This document shows positions 361 through 63,279 of a stretch of DNA of 64,000 bases, one piece after another. Both the position numbers and the translations under genes were made by a program. The DNA is from Apostichopus japonicus (taxonomy: Eukaryota > Echinodermata > Holothuroidea > Aspidochirotida > Stichopodidae), in the NCBI RefSeq assembly GCF_037975245.1, contig NC_092578.1, positions 9,776,359 to 9,840,358 of the forward strand, written 5' to 3'. Positions within the stretch are counted from its first letter, which is position 1, and every line of letters starts with the position of its first letter. The notes under the pieces were generated by a model. That model was not told where the DNA came from. It did no database searches and saw nothing but the letters and a program-made list of their open reading frames with translations.

Positions 361-3300
361 GTATAGTATAATAATAAGCAATAATAATAAGCAAATATTT
401 ATATAGCGCTTTATGTAAAGGCCTCAAAGCGCTTAAAACAAGTACACAAATATGCAAGACAAATCACTGTAAATTTTGGAATAAATGTGTTTTTAAGAGA
501 CGCTTAAAACAGTCAACCGATGGTGCATTGCGAATTGAAGATGGTAGATTGTTCCAGAGTTGAGGTGCAGCAGAGATGAAGGCTCTTTCTCCATAAAACT
601 TTGTGTTTGGGGTATGGCTGGTGGCAAGAAGACACTTTGTAGACGAGCGAAGTTGGCGTTGAGGATGATACTGAGGAATTAAATTTGTAATGTAACCAGG
701 AGCAAGGGAGTGTTGTGATTTGTACGTTAAGAGGAGGAGCTTATAAATTGACCGATGTTTTACTGGAAGCCAATGGAGTGATTGAAGCACTGGAGACATG
801 TGATCATGACGCGATGAACATGATATTAACCGGGCAGCAGAATTCTGAACAGTTTGAAGTTTTTTCAGTGTAGAGTCAGGAAGGCCAAATAAAAGGGAGT
901 TACAGTAGTCAAGCCTGGGCAGTATCAAGGAACATACAAGTTTTGTAGTGATATCTTTGGTTAAAAACTTCCGTATCCGGCTGATCTTCCGTACGGCATT
1001 GTATGATGATTTGCAAACAGCATTGACCTGTTGTTTCATGCTTAGATGGGGATCCAGTACAACTCCTAGACTTTTGACGTGCGTGGACGGAGTGATGGTA
1101 GTCTGATCAATTTTGACTGAAATAGATTTGATTGTTGTGGATTTAAATTGCGAGGTAGCATGGAGGATTTCAGTCTTTGAGTCATTGATAAAAAGATTGT
1201 TTGATATAGCCCATGATTTTACATCTGCAATACAGTTTTGGATTTTCTGAATAGCATCGGAACAATGATCAGGATGGAAAGATGTGAATAACTGAATGTC
1301 ATCAGCATAAATAACAGTTTGCATATTAGCTGAAATGATTAAATCATGCAATGGAGCTACATACAAGGTGTAAAGTAACGGCCCCAGAACTGAGCCTTGT
1401 GGGACTCCAGTTGCAAGCGTAACTTCCTTTGACAGATTTTGATCCACAATAACACATTGGGTACGGTTTGCTAAGTATGATTTCATCCAGTACAATGGAA
1501 TTCCATCAACACCATATCTTTCATGCAAACGTGTTAAAAGTGTTTGGTGATTAATTGTGTCGAAGGCGGATGAGAAATCCAACAGGACTAGTAAAGCATC
1601 TTTACGCTCATCAAGGGCACAGAGAAGGCTATTCTGCACATAAAGTTGAGCAGTTTCTGTGCTGTAATTTGCTCGATATGCAGATTGCATTCTCGCATAG
1701 AGATCATTGTTTGAAAGATAATCTTGAAACTGTTTGCAAACAATACGTTCGATTAGCTTGGATAGATAAGGGAGGTTTGATATAGGTCTGTAATTTGCAA
1801 GATTATTAGCATCAAGCTTGGGTTTTTTAATATGAGGAATTATCACCGCTTGCTTCAGTGAGCATGGTAACTGACCTGAAGTTAAAGAAAGATTAACAAT
1901 TTTCGTGATGACTGGTAGTAAGTCTGAGATACACTCCTTGAAGACAAATGTTGGCAAAGGATCCAAAAAACAAGAGGTAACTGGTGACGAGTTAATAACT
2001 TCTAAAACATCTTGTTCACTCACTTCTTTGAAAGCAGTAAAAACTGACTTTGATTTACATTGTTCCATCGGAGTATTACCAGTCCCATAGTCAGGATAAG
2101 CATGTTGGAGAGAATTTACTTTTTGTTGAAAGAAATCAACAAATCGATTGGCAAGATTCTCAGCGACATCATATTTTGGGAGGGTATTATCCACTTCCGG
2201 TGAAGTTAGCTTATTTACAATGCGAAACATATCCTTCGGGTTTGCGGAGGTAATCTGTTGTCGAAAATAACAGGACTTTGCGGAGATTAGCAAATCTTTG
2301 TAATGTTTACATTGAGTCATGTACAGCTGTTTGTGTACAATGAGACCGGAGTGTTTATATTTTCTTTCACATTTGCGTTTCTCACGTTTTGCTAATCGGA
2401 TGTCTCTGCTGTACCATTTTGCCCTTGGGCGCATAATTACAGCCTTTCTTGTGACAGGTGCATGTTTATCTATAATTGTCCTAAGAACTGAGTAATATTG
2501 GTCCACAAGAGAGTCAAGAGAACTTTGCGGATTTAGCAGTAAAGATGAGGATCCAATGTCACAACGAAATTGGTCAAAATCAATGTTCTTTAGGTTGCGC
2601 CTTTGAGTGAATTTCCTGACAGGAGGTGGTCGGTCCATATTAATGAGGCAACTTACAACTGAGTGGTCAGAAGTACATAAATGTTCATCATGCACACACG
2701 TACATTTAACAAGATCCGAGTCTTTATGTGAAATGATAAGATCAAGTGTATGTCCATTTCTGTGGGTTGGACCAGAGACATGTTGCTGGAAATCAAAAGC
2801 TTGGAGTAAGTCATCAAAAGAAGCAAAGTTTTGATCTGATGGAACATCAACATAAATATTGAAATCCCCCATGATAATTAAGGGGGTTGTGGAAGAGGAT
2901 AAAAATTGAAGTAGAGATGAAAAATCATCGATGAACATTGCAAAAGTTAATTTATTTTTGTTGTTTGGGGGAGGCCTATATAGTCCGATCATGCGTATTG
3001 TTGATTTTGATGACGAAATGTTGAGATCGATGAACTCAAAAGACCTAAGATTGCCACTGTCATTTAATTTCACATCAAAACTCTTCCTGATCAAGAAGCC
3101 AACTCCTCCTCCCTTACCCTTATTTCGTGGGCAATGGTAAAAAGCAAAGTCTGGAAGTGAAGTGTGTAAGTCAGCTAAAATACAATCATCACTGTCATCT
3201 CCCTTTAACCATGTCTCTGTTATTGCCATTGCATCCATATGTTGGTCAATGATAAGGTTACATAATGAAGTCACTTTGTTTTCAGCTTTTATTGAGCGAA

Positions 3301-3840
3301 TATTCCAAAGCCCGAAGTGCAAATTGCTTCCTTTTTTAGATAAAGAAGCAAGTTCATTGTCCTTTCTTTCTCTCCTACGACCTCTTCTGGTTCGCTTCAC
3401 TGCACATATATTTAAACTTCTTATGACAGAATAGATGTCAGAAGATAATCTGCATCTTGGCTGTCTTAAGCTGAGAAGATCACCTTTTGTGTATGTGAGC
3501 ATGGTTGTTCCAGTGGTTGATAGACAAACAAAAGCAATAGCTGCACCACAAAATAAAGCAAGAAAAGTGTGGAATTTTAAGCTGGCCATGGAGAAAATAG
3601 CTGAGGTTTACAGCTAGGCTAGTACAACTATCTGTTAGGCTTGAAAAGATTTCCAGAACAAAAACAATGTCCAAAATTACCAGAAAAGTAGCAAAAGTTA
3701 AGTTATCTGAGAAACTCCAAAGTCAACTCTTATGTCAGAAACGCAAGTAGCTTTGAGCATCCAACAGAAAAATTGTTAACAGTAGAAAAAAACTTGCAAG
3801 AAAGTGAGAGCTTGTTGCATGGTGCAGCCGCAAGGGCGCA
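361..3840 (-). mobile_element. LINE retrotransposon, L2/CR1-type, with intact ORF
   Basis: Non-LTR retrotransposon on the minus strand. Its single long reading frame (464-3589) carries both an endonuclease and a reverse transcriptase. The 3' end (361-463 on the plus strand) reads, on the minus strand, as a short UTR with GCGCTATATAAATATTTG followed by an A/T-rich triplet tail (TTATTATTATTGC...), the usual 3' end of this LINE group. The 5' boundary is not defined; about 250 bases upstream of the start codon may be 5' UTR, and I saw no second ORF for an ORF1 protein. Clade placement rests on the C-terminal 'LHWLPV ... APQLWNNLP' block and is inference. No target-site duplication was recognised. 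Confidence 0.9.
464..3589 (-). CDS. LINE endonuclease/reverse transcriptase polyprotein (1041 aa)
   Basis: Catalyses target-primed reverse transcription: the endonuclease nicks DNA and the reverse transcriptase copies element RNA at the nick. Residues ~1-80 hold a hydrophobic start and a basic stretch (KRTRRGRRR) typical of L2-type N-termini. An APE-like endonuclease follows at about 90-320, with N96 in LWNIRS, then ITETW, MGDFN, TLDLI and SDHS. The reverse transcriptase (about 570-830) has LDFSSAFDTINH, GVPQGSVLGPLLY and the catalytic YADD near residue 760. The C-terminal domain has LHWLPVKHRS and APQLWNNLPSSIRNA. There are no stops or frameshifts over 1041 codons and every catalytic motif I looked for is present, so the copy looks young and possibly competent. 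No ORF1 was found. Confidence 0.93.
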   Translation of the reverse strand: MASLKFHTFLALFCGAAIAFVCLSTTGTTMLTYTKGDLLSLRQPRCRLSSDIYSVIRSLNICAVKRTRRGRRRERKDNELASLSKKGSNLHFGLWNIRSIKAENKVTSLCNLIIDQHMDAMAITETWLKGDDSDDCILADLHTSLPDFAFYHCPRNKGKGGGVGFLIRKSFDVKLNDSGNLRSFEFIDLNISSSKSTIRMIGLYRPPPNNKNKLTFAMFIDDFSSLLQFLSSSTTPLIIMGDFNIYVDVPSDQNFASFDDLLQAFDFQQHVSGPTHRNGHTLDLIISHKDSDLVKCTCVHDEHLCTSDHSVVSCLINMDRPPPVRKFTQRRNLKNIDFDQFRCDIGSSSLLLNPQSSLDSLVDQYYSVLRTIIDKHAPVTRKAVIMRPRAKWYSRDIRLAKREKRKCERKYKHSGLIVHKQLYMTQCKHYKDLLISAKSCYFRQQITSANPKDMFRIVNKLTSPEVDNTLPKYDVAENLANRFVDFFQQKVNSLQHAYPDYGTGNTPMEQCKSKSVFTAFKEVSEQDVLEVINSSPVTSCFLDPLPTFVFKECISDLLPVITKIVNLSLTSGQLPCSLKQAVIIPHIKKPKLDANNLANYRPISNLPYLSKLIERIVCKQFQDYLSNNDLYARMQSAYRANYSTETAQLYVQNSLLCALDERKDALLVLLDFSSAFDTINHQTLLTRLHERYGVDGIPLYWMKSYLANRTQCVIVDQNLSKEVTLATGVPQGSVLGPLLYTLYVAPLHDLIISANMQTVIYADDIQLFTSFHPDHCSDAIQKIQNCIADVKSWAISNNLFINDSKTEILHATSQFKSTTIKSISVKIDQTTITPSTHVKSLGVVLDPHLSMKQQVNAVCKSSYNAVRKISRIRKFLTKDITTKLVCSLILPRLDYCNSLLFGLPDSTLKKLQTVQNSAARLISCSSRHDHMSPVLQSLHWLPVKHRSIYKLLLLTYKSQHSLAPGYITNLIPQYHPQRQLRSSTKCLLATSHTPNTKFYGERAFISAAPQLWNNLPSSIRNAPSVDCFKRLLKTHLFQNLQ

Positions 3841-15200: not shown

Positions 15201-18200
15201 TGTGTGAAAAGGTTGCGAAAGAACAATAAAACTTATTATATTATTACATCAGCCGACCAACATCCAAACTAGAATAAATATACCAACTCCATGTTAGATT
15301 TGGGGGGGGGGGGTCAACATATAAGTATGTATAACATGACATAATCAGACACTAGGCAAAACAAAATGCAAAACAGAGAAAATAAAAAACAATGTAATAA
15401 AATCAATGATGATTATTACCCGTTCAGCTTCTTTAAACTGGACTGGTCTTTTATTGATATATATCCAACACCTGTCATTGGAATGGACTCTTCCAACTAG
15501 TTGAAGATCGCTTCCCGCTTTTGGCAAAAACCCGTTGATAGTCACCTGTAAATAAACATATCCACAATTTTAAACATAAACAGTGTCTTGCTTGTATTGG
15601 ATCTGCTCTCCCATTGATTTTATCGTTACAAGGAAGTTAACGATGAGAATATTGAAGATAAACTACACAGGAAATGGGGAAAGCTCAAGCATTGACAAAA
15701 CAAGAGAAGAATGAAAACACAGATGTATCTGTTACTTATCATCTATTTTCAACAACACCTATGACTTTTGCAAGTGAGCATGTGAGGTTTTTGAGTCTGT
15801 TTCTGATAATCATTGAATTCATATTACATATTTAAGACCATGAGTGAGGTGATATCTCCAACTCTCAGTTCTTGAGACATGAAATGAATTCAGGATCTCT
15901 TGGGCAGCTTAATGTAATAGCCAGGAATGGCATAAATTTAGCCTAAGAAACGTAAATTACACCAAATTTGAAAAGTTCCAAAATATTTTGACTGTAACTT
16001 AATAATAAAAAATTGGCTAAATCAAGGTAATGGACTACCTTGATGGGATTTTAACATAGAAAAGCATTTAATAAAATGACCCACATCAACTTAAAAAATT
16101 GCTTTTAATGGATGGTTTGTGTACTTCTAATTATTTTTCTGATTTAGTCTTATAGCAGTTTTTGAGTTCATATTTTTGTAACATTTTGGACATGCCTATG
16201 CACATATCATGAATATTGAGAACGTTCCTTTTGAATAATAAAGAGACTGCACAAAAAAATTCATTAATTTTAGGATTATTCATAGTCTGTCTCGGGTTGG
16301 CCCAATGATAACTTACATTGAGTGTTACTACATACTACAGTAGCTTTGGTAAACTTTGGAAATTAAGGACTAACCTCAAAAGCTGTTTCCCCTCAGAATC
16401 ACAACAAATTTCTTAATGGTATTATTCTTAAGATGGGTGTTACACCTTTTGAAATAAAGTATGATTTCCATTGTAATGTAATATATAAAATGAGAAAGAA
16501 ATTGATATTATTTTGTTGACTGCTTATGGTTTTAGTTTACTCTTACCCCTGTATCATTATCATGATCCTCAACAGATTGACTTCCTGTGGGTTTAGGGAA
16601 CACTCACCCCTGTATCATTATCATGATGGTCCACAGCTTCCATCTGATTCATGACACTGGATCCGACGATATTCAAAAGGGCGACCTTGCAGGATGGAAC
16701 TTTATTCTTTTGCCAAACCAACTTCTTATTATGACTGAGAGCAAATCGCACGCCTGGGTTGACATAGCCGTAACACATCAGTAAATCCTCCACTTTCTTT
16801 AATTCTTCTTTCTTTCTCCTTGAACTACTGTAGAACTGTCTTCTCACTGGTACATTCTTAAAGAGATGAGTGGATGTCACTGTAGTGCCTAGGAAATCAA
16901 ATATCAAGCTGAATAGTGAAATCTATTACTTAAAAACAAACATGACACATCTTCAAAGGAGATGTTGATTAAGTCTGTAGCTTTTGAGATGGTTGTTAAC
17001 AATTTTCATTTCTCTTCTACAAACTGTTTTACTCTTCTACAAACTGTTTTAATTTTGAATTATTTCCAGTTTCATATTTTTATTGTTGATTTATACTAGT
17101 GTTGAAAATGTTTTTTATTGTTAGTATGTTTAAGTCTCATTATGTTATACTTTTTACCTTGTAGCAGCTTGAGTTTGGTTTGCATTGTAAGGGGCTTTAT
17201 AAATCTAAATTATTATTATTACAGATGAGGGGTGTGTATTTCAGCCATTATTATGAAGCCCATAAGCTATTATTCATTAAGGTTGTTTTTGATGAGATAT
17301 GCAACTCCTTGGACTGCTCTCTTATTATTGAAGTGACGGCAGAATCCAATGTGACTTACACAGGATATAAAACTATTGAACTGGAAGACATGATAACATG
17401 TTAATCGTATTAGACCAATTTTTACAACTGTTACAACAGGTCAACTTTAAGGTAAAGATGACATTCAAACCTTTAGATACATACCATTACCAAGATGGGA
17501 AGGTTTTGATGAAGAAACCAATCCACTGTGATCCAGTGTATGAACACGACTAATACCATCTTCCTTCCGTTTGGTTGTTATGGATACATCTGAGATGGCA
17601 CACAGGGAAGCCAACGCCTCACCCCGGAACCCATAGGATGTGACACTAATCAGGTCGCTGAAATCTTTCAGCTTCGATGTATAATGTCTTTGACCCATCA
17701 AAGGTACATCCCTACTTGATATCCCGGCACCATTATCTCTAACTTCGATCCTATCAAGACCAAAGTTATCCTACAGATTGAAATAAACCGTTGAATAACA
17801 CAGATCCTAAGTTACAATCGTACATTACATCGATCCATCACAACTGTTCCCCAAGATAATACAACGTCAAAAACATCACCCAGTTTGCAGTTGTCCTTAG
17901 TCTTTACTTAATTTTAAGATGATAACTTGATCCAGTCTTCTTTTCCATTTATATGTAACTGGAGATCAGCCAGTGCATGACAAGGATCTTAGACAACAAA
18001 TTGATAATTCAATGTAGCTTAAAAGAATATTACAATACTGTACCTGGACCTTGAGCATTACTGCTGTACATTGTGGTTCCATATTACTAACACACAATGA
18101 AAATCAACAAATTGCAATCATGTCATCTTTCATATCGACTCTAGTTCAGGACACTTTAAAGCTAAAAGTCTTATATTAAAGCATAGACAGATTTTAGTCA

Positions 18201-23149: not shown

Positions 23150-23785
23150 GTGTGGAGAATTTGATTTGCCGACGGATCTGGAAGTGGTGACTGAAATGGT
23201 GGAGGGGTCTAAGGGGAGGGGGTGTCCCCTCCCCTTTGGCAATTTTTTAGTTTTGAAACGTCCTTAGATGCAATCTGGTGCATATTTTAAGTCATATTTG
23301 ATTTGCCGACGGATCTGGAAGTGGTGACTGAAATGGGGGAGGGGTCTAATTTTTAGTTTTGAAACGTCCTTAGATGCAATCTGATGTATATTTTAAGTCA
23401 AATTTGATTTGCCGACGGATCTGGAAGTGGTGACTGAAATGGGGGAGGGGTCTAATTTTTAGTTTTGAAACGTCCTTAGATGCAATCTGATGTATATTTT
23501 AAGTCAAATTTGATTTGCCGACGGATCTGGAAGTGGTGACTGAAATGGGGGAGGGGTCTAAGTGGAGGGGTGTCCCCCTCCCCCTTTGGAAAATTTTTAG
23601 TTTTGAAACGTCCTTAGATGCAATCTGGTGCATATTTTAAGTCAAATTTGATTTGCTGACGGATCTGGAAGTGGTGACTGAAATGGGGGAGGGGTCTAAG
23701 GGTAGGGGGTCTACCCCTCCCCTTTGGAAAAATTAGTTTGAACGTCCTTAGATGCAATCTGGTGCATATTTTAAGTCAAATTTGG
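23150..23785. repeat. Tandem repeat, five copies, 105-138 bp
   Basis: 'TTTGCCGACGGATCTGGAAG' starts near 23,163, 23,301, 23,407, 23,513 and 23,651. Two unit lengths alternate: about 138 bp with an extra G/C-rich 'ggagggggtgtcccc' insert, and about 105 bp without it. Each unit also contains GAAACGTCCTTAGATGCAAT. Non-coding. Confidence 0.88.
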
Positions 23786-23921: not shown

Positions 23922-23957
<36 letters not shown>

Positions 23958-23975
23958 CTCTATATATAAATACAT
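23921..23975. repeat. TA microsatellite
   Basis: Mostly (TA)n, just upstream of the hammerhead and Penelope-like remnant. Confidence 0.9.
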
Positions 23976-24017
23976 ATGTATACAGTAAATGAAGATCAAC
24001 ACACCACAAAAATTCCA

Positions 24018-24059
24018 CTTCACGACCGGTTTCGTCCTTTCGGGACTCATCAGGCGAAG
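24018..24059 (-). ncRNA. Hammerhead ribozyme (type I, minimal helix III)
   Basis: Read on the minus strand: stem I arm CTTCGC, core CTGATGA, stem II G-TCC / GGA-C closed by loop CGAAA, core GAAA, helix III C-C/G-G, cleavage triplet GTC, and stem I arm GTGAAG. All invariant core residues (CUGANGA, GAAA, U-H before the scissile bond) are present. Stem I has six pairs including one G-U. Helix III is only three pairs (ACCGGT is self-complementary) with no loop, as in the minimal hammerheads known from Penelope-like elements, which may act as dimers. It sits about 100 bp upstream of a Penelope reverse-transcriptase remnant, but on the opposite strand. Confidence 0.82.
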
Positions 24060-24129
24060 GTAGGAATCAATTCTGGAACTTGTCATAGACCGAAGTCCGT
24101 ACCACTCGACCACAGTGATTCTACAAGTG

Positions 24130-25110
24130 TGTGAATGCGTATAAACTGACTTTGTATAACTGTCAATTAGGGCGTATGAGGGCTGAAGTGATGCAACTTG
24201 TCTTGACCGGCAATAAACTGGTATTTGGCAACAAACACTACCTCCAGATTCATGGCACCGCAATAGGTACTAAACTGCTCCTTCTTTTGCCACATCTTTA
24301 TGGGAAACCTTGAGAAAGAATGTCTATCTCAACAAAACTTGACACCACACATATGGTTACGTTTCATTGACGATATCTTTATGATATGGACTCAAGGTGG
24401 GGCAAAACTAAAACTCTTCCTTGATGACATAAACTTGTTTCATCACACAATCAAATTTACTGCAGAGTTTTAGACCTGACGTTCACTTCCTGGACACCAC
24501 TGTGACCCTACAAATGACTTGTTCAATAAACCTACGAACGAGCACAACTACCTCTTACCAAGCAGCTGCCGTCCACGTCATCGTATCAGAGACATTCAAT
24601 AGTCAAGCGCTGCGCATTCAACGCATTTGCTCTTCTGAAGTCCAATTTTAATTCTCGCACCAAAGAACTGTCACAACACCTTCTCAACAGACAGTTTTTT
24701 TTGGGGTACTATTGAAATTGAAATATTGAAGTACAAAACTCACCAAAGCAGTTCCAAAAGGATACCACTGGTTCCTGAATTCCACCCTGGTCTCCCACCA
24801 CTGGCAAATATCATTCACAAGAATTTTCACACTTCAAAGCATGAAACGTCTAAAACCAGTTTTCTCAGAACCACTTGTCATTTCAGTTACAAGACCCAGA
24901 AACCTACATGACATTTTCCATCTTTTTTTTCATCTTTTCAGGATGACAACCCATCAGGGGAAAACAAACTAGAAAATACAGGATCATTGCCCTGTACACA
25001 AAATTGCAAAATGTGCTTTCGTGATTCTACTGGGGCCCTTCAGAGCTACCAGACTAAACACACGTCAATTGTTCACATCCAGCTGCAAAAGTGCTAAATA
25101 CATAGAAGTA
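24130..25110 (+). mobile_element. Penelope-like retroelement, decayed reverse transcriptase
   Basis: Plus-strand frames, broken by several frameshifts and stops, give LVLTGNKLVFGNKHYLQIHG, then FMGNLEKECL, then MWLRFIDDIFMIWTQGG with the catalytic RFIDDIF. Next come NLFHHTIKFTAE, VHFLDTTVTL, then VPLVPEFHPGLPPLANIIHK and LPCTQNCKMC. These blocks and their order are those of Penelope-like reverse transcriptases. The GIY-YIG endonuclease that normally follows was not found; AT and CA microsatellites take its place. The copy is 5'-truncated and inactive. Confidence 0.85.
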
Positions 25111-25159
25111 GAGCAAGTATATAATATGGTATACATATATGGTAACCATATGTAGGTTA

Positions 25160-25330
25160 CCATATACATATACTATATTATATATATATATATATCCAGA
25201 CCCGGTGGCTACATATGTATACAGATACATACACCCATACACACACGTACACGCACGCACACACGTACACATACGCATTCATGCAATCACATACATACAG
25301 GCATACTTACACACACACATACATTTTGAA
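25160..25330. repeat. AT and CA/TACA microsatellites
   Basis: Short (TA)n at about 25,178-25,193, then a CACACGTACACGCACG-type tract to about 25,322. Open frames here are repeat artefacts. Confidence 0.85.
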
Positions 25331-25835
25331 TTTATGTGCTCCATTACAATCATTCGTAGACCGAATGGAGAGATTTAAAAATAACACAAATGAAGAAAAA
25401 ATTGTCTTTCATTTTCTGTCTCGACTTCTTCTGTTTTCATGTTTTAGCTGCTTTAGATTTATTGAAACAGCTTTTTTACAGTTCCAGTAAAACAGCAGTT
25501 ACAAATCAACTGTCCAGACATTTCTCTTAATTAAAAAGTTTAAAAATTGGGAAAAATTAGGAAATAAAGAGTTTAATTTAATCTAAAAAAGAAAGTGGCA
25601 CAAGTTCCTTTATTCATCCTCTATATTTGTGTAATAACTACTAGAGCTATAAATGATAGGATAATTATCAGTACTAGATTCAGGTGAAATCAGAAAACTT
25701 CAAATGTTAATCCATTGTCCTCCTTAATGAGATTCAAAACACAGGCTACATTATTATAAAGCAAAACATGTTACACTATAATTTTAAAGATGTTCCACTG
25801 ACTGTAACATAATATGTTCCACTATCGCATAAGAC

Positions 25836-26306
25836 AGGGATGTGCCCAGGATATACTGATCGCCGTCCTGAGGGAGGGGTCTAAGGGGGAGGGGGTGTCG
25901 TCCTCCCCCCTTTAAGAAATTTTTTGATTTTTGAAGGTGCTCAGATGCCAATAGCTGGCACTTGTGTAGCTTTTTAAGCACATACATTAGTTTTGCTAAA
26001 AATTTACATTTTAAATTTTGTTTCTAGTGAAATACATTAGTACCTGGTAAAAGTTATTAGTTTGCTTCAAAGAGATTTTATAAGGGACTGATTGAGAGCC
26101 ATAAGTAATGTTTCTCGCATGCGTAACTGATGCATTATTAGTCTGTATGATTTTGGCATAGGCTAGGCCCACTTTACGTTGAATATATTGTTAGGAATGT
26201 TGGGATTTTAGATGAAAATAGTGCTGGGCGGGATTCACATTTTTTAAGACAGTGCCAGGCGGTAATTTTTAGTGCTGGGCGGGCCGCCCAGCGTGGGCAC
26301 GTCCCT
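25836..26306. mobile_element. hAT-like MITE inserted in a minisatellite
   Basis: Begins AGGGATGTGCCCAGG and ends CAGCGTGGGCACGTCCCT. Flanks are CATAAGAC (25,828-25,835) and CATAAGAT (26,307-26,314), a 7/8 match. The host sequence on both sides is a short repeat built on AAGATGTTCC...CTAGCA, so the element landed in a minisatellite. Related ends occur at about 31,796 and 52,297. Confidence 0.75.
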
Positions 26307-38800: not shown

Positions 38801-41800
38801 AGTTGGTGTTATGTACATAGACAAACATACAGTAGTAGTGCACTGAGATTTAAGCAAGTTAGCTCAACTCTGTAAGAAGAAACAAATGCAAATTTGACAA
38901 TATAAGTTAGTACAAAGTGTTACCATTCTTGATCCATGCAACAGATTTCACAGGTTCTGAGTGATATTCCAAGGTAGCAATGGCACTGCCATCTTTGTTC
39001 CAGAGTCTCACGTGGTTGTCATAGCAACCAGTAAGTATTCTACATGGGTATTAAACATGTAAGAGAACTTCATGAGCTGAAGAGTTAGTATTCCTACTTC
39101 ATGTCTAAATGTTTCACTTTAACCTTTAATTTTGTTTTATAGTTAATAAAATTCAAAATTTCTACTTGTACCTAATAAGTACAGGAATAGCCTCGATCGC
39201 ATAAATTAACGTAAGAGGAAACATTATCTGAGAAGTTTCAGACACAATGAAACTATAACAGCAACACTTTTTGGAAAATTGAAATGCCACTAAAACCATA
39301 TTGCATAAATAACCATTAGTATTAATATATTATAACTGTGGATTCTGTAAGAAATAATGAGATGCATGACAACACAAATGCAACTTGAGAGAACATTCAT
39401 GAAAACATAAGAAGCAGCAAGGTCTAAAAATCCAAAAAAAGGTGGCCAAATATAATACAGAAACTCACCGACCACTATGACCTCTAACAGTGCTGATCCA
39501 GTCATCGTGCAGAACACTACCCACAGGCTTAGGACTAGGAAACTTTTCAACATATTCAATGTCAACTACTGTTTCCGTAGATACTCCTTTCTCTTCCAGG
39601 TGTTCACCCAGTGAGAGTCGCAAGAATTCGCCATTGATGAGAAAATCAAAATCAACCTGTTTGTGTTCTTGCTCTGTCTTATCTATGACAAAATGCAGAT
39701 AGGAAAATGGTGGAATCTTTGAGGAAAACTAAAAGTCAGCTCAAACTAAGTACCTATTAGCTGAATGATATACACTGTACAATACAGATCAACATTGCAT
39801 TCTTTCACATGGTAGAAAATGCAATCAGCTCTCAAATATTAAAGTTGCTGCTCTGAGGCAATTGGAGCTTATTCAATGTGAGTAAATATTTAAATTGAAG
39901 ATCCAACTGAAAAAAGGTGAATCTTGCATTTCAGACCTACAGACCAACCTTTGAAGTTATAATGTTAACAACTGCAAGAAATGTTTTCTTTTTGATGACC
40001 AGTGTAAGAATTAACAGAAATTATTTCAACATGTTCGCATTAATGCATAGTTTGATAGCTGACCAAACTGCAATACAAGATTAGGTAGTGTGTGGATTCA
40101 TGGGAATAATTTGCAGTTTAATTTTATAATCAAGTTCACAACAGCCCACTATATGTGAGATCTCTTACTACTACTACTATGAGATACATCAGTTTCTAAT
40201 TCTGAGGCAATGTAGGAATGGTTGAAGTGTAAGGGCTGTCGGTATATCGATATTATCGATAATAGCCGGTATTTCAATTGTAGTCATATGGACGATATCC
40301 ATTTCCAACCGCATCGATATGTTGCAAACATCAAATTAGAAATACCAATTAAAATATGGAAACATAGACTGTTATTGATATCACAGAGACTTGCCTATAT
40401 TCTACTAAATATCGATACACTAATTTGAGCGGTGTTTCGTACAAATTCTGTGTCAAAACTTATGCAAACAGGTTCTTTACTGTCCTTTCTAGTTCTACTA
40501 CTAAACAATGATAAGAATAGCCTAGTTTCCCTTGTTCTACAACCCTATAAACCATTAGTAAACATGGCCGTCACTGCGCAAAAGCCTAGGACTATGTGCT
40601 GGGACAGTATATACCCCTAATCACTGATCTTCTTTACTGACCAAACGATATAGTCCAAACAGCTAAATACCAACTGTATCAATATATATAGACTACCCAC
40701 TGTATTGATACTAACTATAGAGCGACTGATACAGCGAGATTGGTCTTCACTGCTGCTTCATCCAACAACAAGGGGGCTTGTTAACACTGTAGTCTTGGCA
40801 CACACAGTGGCTAGGTGCCCATAAGACCATCACCCACACAGTCGGACAATCCTATTAAATGCAAGTCACTGTAGTATCCGATAGGGAAGAACTGACCTAT
40901 GACCCTAGGCCTATAGGCATTATATCTTGGGGCAAACAATTTTTCGTTATAGAATTTATTGAATGAAAATTTTCTTATGTTAGTAAACTATTCCAAAAAT
41001 TAATCATCATAGATAGACGCCTTTTCAAACCAGCTTCATTTGTCATAATTTGTGTAACATAGTTAGTATCATTTAGTGCCATGCAGTGTACATCAACAGC
41101 AATGCAGGAATGATGGAAACCCTGATGAATCATAATGAATATATTCAGCTATCTAGCCAGCTACACTTAGATGTTATGTACGGTACCTGGGGATTTACTG
41201 CATGGTACCTGGGGATTTACTGCACGGTTCCTGGGGATTTTACTACAAATGCGGCATCCCACCATCAATCCCACGTCCATAGCATATTTAACATTTTCTA
41301 CAAAACTTAAGGAGCTCAATAAATCAGTTAGAAGTGCAATATTTTTATTCTTGTATTTTCTCTCTAGGCAATGTTTAACTTTACATTGATTCCGACATTC
41401 ACAGCATATGCATGGAGTATAAAGTTTTGACAGACCTTATGTTTGACAGTTGTATACCATACAATAGTATGTCTAGGCCAACATACACAGTAACTAGTCT
41501 ACCACAAAATTTCCCACTTTTGTCATTTTGTTGATGTCTATTAGTTATAGATTTCACCATTTGATTTTTTTTTCGTGCATATTGTAGACCTATCACTATA
41601 GGCATCAGTTGTGCACAAGTGAATCTGTTGTCAGAGGTCATTATAACTAAGTACTGTGTGTTCCTGTAGAGGTAATTAAAAGTGCATGTTTTTATGGAGG
41701 ACTGCAGGAATGCAACTTCTTCTGGGCGGATACAAACAAGTGTAAGATGTTGCATCCTGCAGACCCAACTTTTAAAATCTTAACAATACGCCACAGATAT

Positions 41801-62222: not shown

Positions 62223-63279
62223 ATCTTTTCCTACCGTCCGTATGGAAAGCCATTTTAACATTTAATCAGGAATTTTAGATATCTTAAATTTTTTTCTTAC
62301 TTTAGATATCTAAAATTCTATTTCAGATATCTAAAATTAAATTCGAGATATCTTAAATTGAATTCGAGATATCTTAAATTTTATTTCAGATATCTGAAAT
62401 TGAATTCGAGATATCTAAAATAGATTTCGAGATATCTGAAATTCTAATTCAGATATCTGAAATTGAATTCGAGATATCTGAAATTGAATTCGAGATATCC
62501 GAAATTGAGTTCGAGATATCTGAAATTCTATTTCAGATATCTGAAATTGAATTCGAGATATCTGAAATTGAATTTAAGATATCTGCAAATCTAATTCGAG
62601 ATATCTGAAATTGAATTCGAGATATCTGCAATTGAATTCGAGATATCTGTAATGCATATGCAGAAATTCCCGAATAAATGTTAAAATGGCACGTATGGAA
62701 AGCAATTTTAACATTTAATCGGGAATTTTCAGATATTTGTAATTGAATTCGAGATATCTAAAATTGAATTCGAGATATCTGAAATTGAATTCGAGATACC
62801 TGAAATTGAATTCGAGATATCTGAAAATGAATTCGAGATATCTGAAATTGAATTCGAGATATCTAAAATTCTATTTCAGATATCTGAAATTGAATTCGAG
62901 ATATCTGAAATTGAATTCGAGATATCTGAAAATGAATTCGAGATATCTGAAATTGAATTCGAGATATCTAAAATTCTATTTCAGATATCTGAAATTGAAT
63001 TCGAGATATCTGAAATTGAATTCGAGATATCTTAAAATGAATTCGAGATATCTTGAATTCAATTTCAGATATCTGAAAAAGAATTTTAGATATCTGAAAT
63101 TCCCTGGTTATTTCGAGATATCTGAAATTGATTTTAAGATATCTGCAATTATTTGTAGATATCTTAAATAAATTGGAGATATCTGTAATTTAATTTGAGA
63201 TATCTGAAATTATTTCGAGATATCTGAAATTCCGTATTAAATGTTAAAACGGCTTTCCATACGTCCGTACGGAAAGATG
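62223..63279. mobile_element. Foldback element built of palindromic 21-bp GATATC/GAATTC units
   Basis: About 45 units of AGATATCTGAAATTGAATTC + G (21 bp), mostly exact, each with two palindromes (AGATATCT and GAATTC). The array is bounded by inverted termini: left CGTATGGAAAGCCATTTTAA at about 62,239, and its inverse at about 63,243-63,268. A third inverted pair around 62,665-62,728 suggests two adjacent elements sharing a boundary. TTCAGATATCT and TTCGAGATATCT variants alternate. The 142-codon plus-strand frame is a repeat artefact. Confidence 0.82.

Follow-up and report, generated by a model that had tools for sequence, protein, structure and literature searches.

Hammerhead motifs were reportedly found in the pLTRs of Penelope-like elements (PLEs) by Cervera and De la Pena in 2014. 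The available sections of later sources describe these ribozymes as type I, with a very short helix III (PMC11167929 and PMC7761336), and as minimal forms without helix III or loop-loop contacts. PLE-type hammerheads may self-cleave as dimers (PMC7761336, citing Lunse et al. 2017), and a palindromic stem III with a hypothetical dimeric form has already been published (PMC3088659). According to the accessible text on an Anolis element, its start codon is located at stem II, outside the core, and the cut lies 26 bp further on. Mutating the ribozyme left the insertion of this element in vitro unchanged, and RNA ends at the cut site were not seen (PMC11167929), which weakens the case for a needed role of cleavage. 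A typical Penelope insert, also in flies and fish, has an ORF between two direct pLTRs and is completed by an adjacent inverted pLTR (PMC3846280, in the part available). The same source lists two 5′-truncated Penelope members, and the longest is flanked by inverted pLTRs. Type I hammerheads are also carried by the non-LTR retrozymes of animals, known in coral, mussel, and salamander, where they lie in tandem repeats of 150 to 450 bp (PMC7229834, in the part available). Retrozymes seem to have no pol III promoter of their own, judging from the accessible text of a review (PMC7761336). In a single mollusk, the giant squid, 235 Hammerhead_1 loci were reported in the genome (PMC6962438, available in part).

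The window analysed here (the whole stretch of DNA, 64 kb long, with a G+C content of 36.8%) contains one type I hammerhead motif (Table 1). As in the PLE pLTRs described above, helix III is very short, an RT-like remnant lies nearby, the predicted cut falls about 26 to 27 nt past a putative start codon, and the presumed target is AT-rich. Unlike in those pLTRs, the putative repeat is inverted here and one copy is left, and stem I is perhaps extended past an internal loop. The locus also resembles the Penelope copies of Adineta vaga, as far as the published excerpt describes them, in having an inverted pLTR before the ORF (putative here), a 5′ truncation, and terminal direct repeats, which measure 9, 10, and 8 bp in the rotifer (PMC3846280) and 15 bp here; unlike those copies, it has no recognisable 3′ pLTR. 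With the animal retrozymes it shares a type I hammerhead in AT-rich DNA, but the tandem repeat of 150 to 450 bp that contains their ribozymes is absent, the motif being present as a single copy in the window.

Table 1. Features of the hammerhead locus, in positions of the window
Feature	Positions	Strand	Basis or remark
(AT)n array, left of the insertion	23922-23982		
Direct repeat TACATATGTATACAG (15 bp), left copy; candidate for a target-site duplication	23971-23985	+	
Putative inverted pLTR	23986-24140	-	Placed from the direct repeat, the position of the core ATG, and the reach of the rotifer pLTR; right limit guessed
Possible extended stem I	24011-24068	-	6 further bp past a 3/1-nt internal loop
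Type I hammerhead ribozyme	24018-24059	-	Rfam and rule scan; predicted cut after C at 24024
RT-like reading, decayed (contains frameshifts and stops)	24173-25105	+	Translation; peptides 24173-24274, 24282-24470, 24519-24599, and 24750-24908
Direct repeat TACATATGTATACAG (15 bp), right copy	25210-25224	+	

The hammerhead motif is real. When the whole window was searched with cmscan at Rfam gathering scores, the sole match was RF00163 (Hammerhead_1), which covered positions 1 to 45 of the 45-position model with 35.3 bits (cut-off, 34; E = 4.1e−5). A preliminary description of this DNA had reported a complete minus-strand hammerhead and had proposed such a covariance-model search; run on the 64-kb window, the search returned exactly the same coordinates and strand. 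The stems of 6 bp (I) and 4 bp (II) and the GTC before the scissile bond that it had listed were found again by a rule-based scan, which also gave a helix III of 3 bp. The site shows the sequence features of a type I hammerhead in RF00163: the conserved core is surrounded by three stems, the cut is preceded by UH, and the score exceeds the curated cut-off. No second site combining the core with the stems was found on either strand of the window, in which the seven-base core CTGATGA alone occurs 12 times.

The shuffled controls used a rule with a looser helix III and a tighter stem I than the scan of the window. Under this rule, the real window gave 2 counts on the minus strand, both from this one core with two choices of the end of helix III, and 300 dinucleotide shuffles of the window gave 3 counts in all over both strands. 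The bare core together with ACCGGTC was found elsewhere at 26 loci (1 viral and 25 prokaryotic), none of which reached 4 bp in both stem I and stem II, and a stricter hammerhead pattern had no match in the prokaryote collection. Judged from these counts, a chance origin of the motif appears very unlikely.

Helix III consists of ACC paired with GGU without a loop and is the self-complementary ACCGGU, as had been described. Since the loop is missing, a single copy is unable to close this helix. The lowest-energy fold of the monomer (58 nt, −17.4 kcal/mol) is not a hammerhead, and the same 58 nt folded as a hammerhead without helix III reach −14.8 kcal/mol. For two copies, the unconstrained minimum is the exact double hammerhead, with −38.9 kcal/mol versus twice −17.4 kcal/mol. 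The gain on dimerisation (−4.1 kcal/mol) is an ordinary one, as 188 of 200 base shuffles gained as much or more. Only 7 of 200 shuffles fold as well as a 61-nt stretch of the locus, whose fold is a non-hammerhead one. An outer helix as long as the extended stem I was obtained in 6.6% of 20,000 random flank pairs. With lax thresholds, another Rfam family, Hammerhead_HH9 (RF02275), covers 24003-24070 with 37.6 bits, which is below its cut-off of 52; the match spans the whole 77-position model, including the core and the outer stem I, but the 5-nt loop on the helix III of HH9 is missing here. The palindromic helix III and cleavage as a dimer had been presented as unusual, a view that is not supported, since both are in the literature (PMC3088659 and PMC7761336, in the parts available). 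A dimer in cis is impossible at 24018-24059 alone because only one copy is present. The loop-less palindromic helix III would make a simple substrate with which to test dimer-only cleavage.

Past the motif, the plus strand can be translated into peptides that we take to resemble the RT of Penelope, including YLQIHGTAIGT and RFIDDIFMIW, an assignment made by eye from motifs only. The preliminary description had placed the ribozyme about 100 bp before a plus-strand RT remnant and on the opposite strand. The arrangement stands, with 114 bp between the motif and the first RT-like peptide, but no library confirms the RT: no meaningful match was returned when the fragment was searched against Pfam, NCBIfam, and the sequences of the PDB. 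The predicted fold of one 68-residue piece was poor (mean pLDDT of 56.8). By eye, the RT-like frame fades near 25105. No endonuclease was matched by Pfam in the RT pieces up to 25098 or in the three plus-strand frames of 25000-25800. The GIY-YIG domain of canonical PLEs was thus not found by Pfam up to 25800, which would make the locus a truncated PLE derivative at best, not an intact member. Just past the RT remnant, beside a TA run, there is an inverted repeat of 30 bp (90%) at 25118-25184, its arms 7 nt apart.

The ribozyme and the RT-like fragment are bracketed by a 15-bp direct repeat that occurs exactly twice in the window. When the two flanks were shuffled 300 times, a shared word of at least 15 bases never arose; the real flanks also have a 17-base TA run in common. 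Pairs of 15-base words lying 0.5 to 3 kb from each other numbered 585 in the window before collapsing and 339 after it; the first 60 by position, reaching 62304 where a dense repeat array starts, were inspected. Most of these 60 fall in clear repeat families, and at least three comparable pairs that by eye lie outside such families were among the matches listed: 20708/22265 (17 bp), 29570/30608 (15 bp), and 44513/46353 (15 bp). PLEs are characterised by variable target-site duplications in AT-rich targets. Because comparable word pairs occur elsewhere in the window, the 15-bp repeat is suggestive, but no proof, of the target-site duplication of a single insertion. With the insert removed, the flanks form by eye one microsatellite, a TA array running into a CA-rich array that starts at 25219. 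The right end of the insert is TA-rich and then reads CCAGACCCGGTGGC, which an origin from Penelope does not account for. Just before the insertion, a tandem array of 106-bp and 138-bp units occupies 23244-23784, and one word of this array, GGGAGGGGTCTAAGG, is found again at 25872.

We think it somewhat probable that the locus is a dead, truncated Penelope-like relic in a TA/CA-rich microsatellite, with one pLTR inverted before the RT remnant. A Penelope-like retroelement would have inserted into the microsatellite, and one pLTR would have been placed backwards ahead of the RT by twin-priming-like or self-primed synthesis. The motif would then be the sense-strand ribozyme of the inverted pLTR, and would read opposite to the RT because that pLTR was inserted backwards. 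In an active tandem element, adjacent ribozymes may have paired through ACCGGU to form a double hammerhead, which could have cut the multimeric transcript into units.

The published layouts bear on two further points of the preliminary description. It had called the opposite orientation unusual, which is not supported: in the parts of the sources available, inverted pLTRs are typical in PMC3846280 and mentioned in PMC8969392 too, so that a ribozyme reading backwards ahead of an RT remnant is to be expected. Its suggestion that the ribozyme belongs to an inverted terminal repeat gains plausibility from the same two sources. On its left side, the insert ends 65 nt beyond the A of the core ATG. 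According to the excerpt on rotifer Penelope, the pLTR plus tail reaches 22 codons (66 nt) into the ORF (PMC3846280), an agreement that depends on translation starting at the core ATG. Between the predicted cut and the A of this ATG there are 27 nt, the Anolis figure given above being 26 bp. Taking the core ATG as the start codon is an assumption because the Anolis ORF begins at stem II. The putative inverted pLTR is present in one copy, without a second one in the window; in a search for a pLTR on the 3′ side, the best inverted match was 22, the shuffle mean was 19.1, and 21 of 200 shuffles were as good. Pattern searches in viral and prokaryote collections found no relative that would show the ribozyme flank as a Penelope pLTR. 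In the viral contigs, 13 stretches fitted a search pattern for relatives, with none confirmed, and two motif patterns had no match. Two near-identical viral loci fitting the pattern of the flank were rejected as relatives, the rest of the hammerhead core being absent from them. Taken alone, 24018-24059 is a further relic hammerhead in an association already known. If its flank is an inverted pLTR, orientation relative to the RT is by itself no sign of a separate element, and this bears on how orientation is scored in genome scans.

A possible but rather doubtful alternative is that the ribozyme comes from a small non-autonomous element, either a retrozyme of the animal non-LTR kind or a SINE-like element with a tRNA head, and is the chance neighbour of an unrelated RT remnant. 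The animal retrozymes cited above provide a precedent, and a pol III promoter-like arrangement lies upstream of the ribozyme on the minus strand, with a full match to the A-box consensus (24112-24102) and, 28 nt beyond it, a B-box-like word with three mismatches (24073-24063). However, the window has four A/B box pairs of such quality, this one included, and no tRNA was matched by Rfam (E ≤ 10) or ARAGORN; a tRNA-derived head for 24063-24112 is not supported by these models. The 15-bp repeat counts on both sides: comparable pairs elsewhere in the window favour a small element, but the repeat takes in the RT fragment as well as the ribozyme. The single ribozyme copy in the window, without a tandem, also speaks against it. 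The B-box-like word overlaps stem I in its outer arm. It is quite improbable that a pol III promoter-like head is fused directly to a dimer-only hammerhead, with the B box serving as this outer arm; if true, the locus would be either a retrozyme or the terminal repeat of a Penelope, with a pol III promoter of its own. By eye, a C(UUCG)G hairpin can be drawn between the A box and the B-box-like word (24063-24112, minus strand).

Two other explanations are less probable still. It is very improbable that the motif is a chance or fossil one with no link to an element: the RF00163 score is barely above the Rfam cut-off and the monomer prefers a fold other than the hammerhead, but the shuffles yielded just 3 counts over 300 and both stems were seen at 0 of the 26 bare-core loci elsewhere. 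A host-adopted ribozyme acting in the transcript of the neighbouring minus-strand genes would, judging from the sequence, be extremely improbable. Both neighbours are on the strand of the ribozyme, and the first intron of human C10orf118 is described as carrying a hammerhead (PMC3088659, in the part available); on the other hand, the loop-less helix III should leave a single copy weak or inactive.

The neighbouring genes were recognised by Pfam matches above the cut-offs, to NLE on one side of the ribozyme (39468-39728, minus strand) and to HATPase_c_3 on the other (17468-17770, minus strand), and by these two matches the window looks eukaryotic. We take the NLE match to represent WDR12-like exons and the HATPase match PMS1-like exons. 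An open frame of 1047 residues (467-3607, minus strand) resembles the ORF2 of a CR1-type LINE, with endonuclease and RT. The dense repeat array at 62239-63264 has direct and inverted self-similarity, and several matches to miRNA families, far below their own cut-offs, fall within it.
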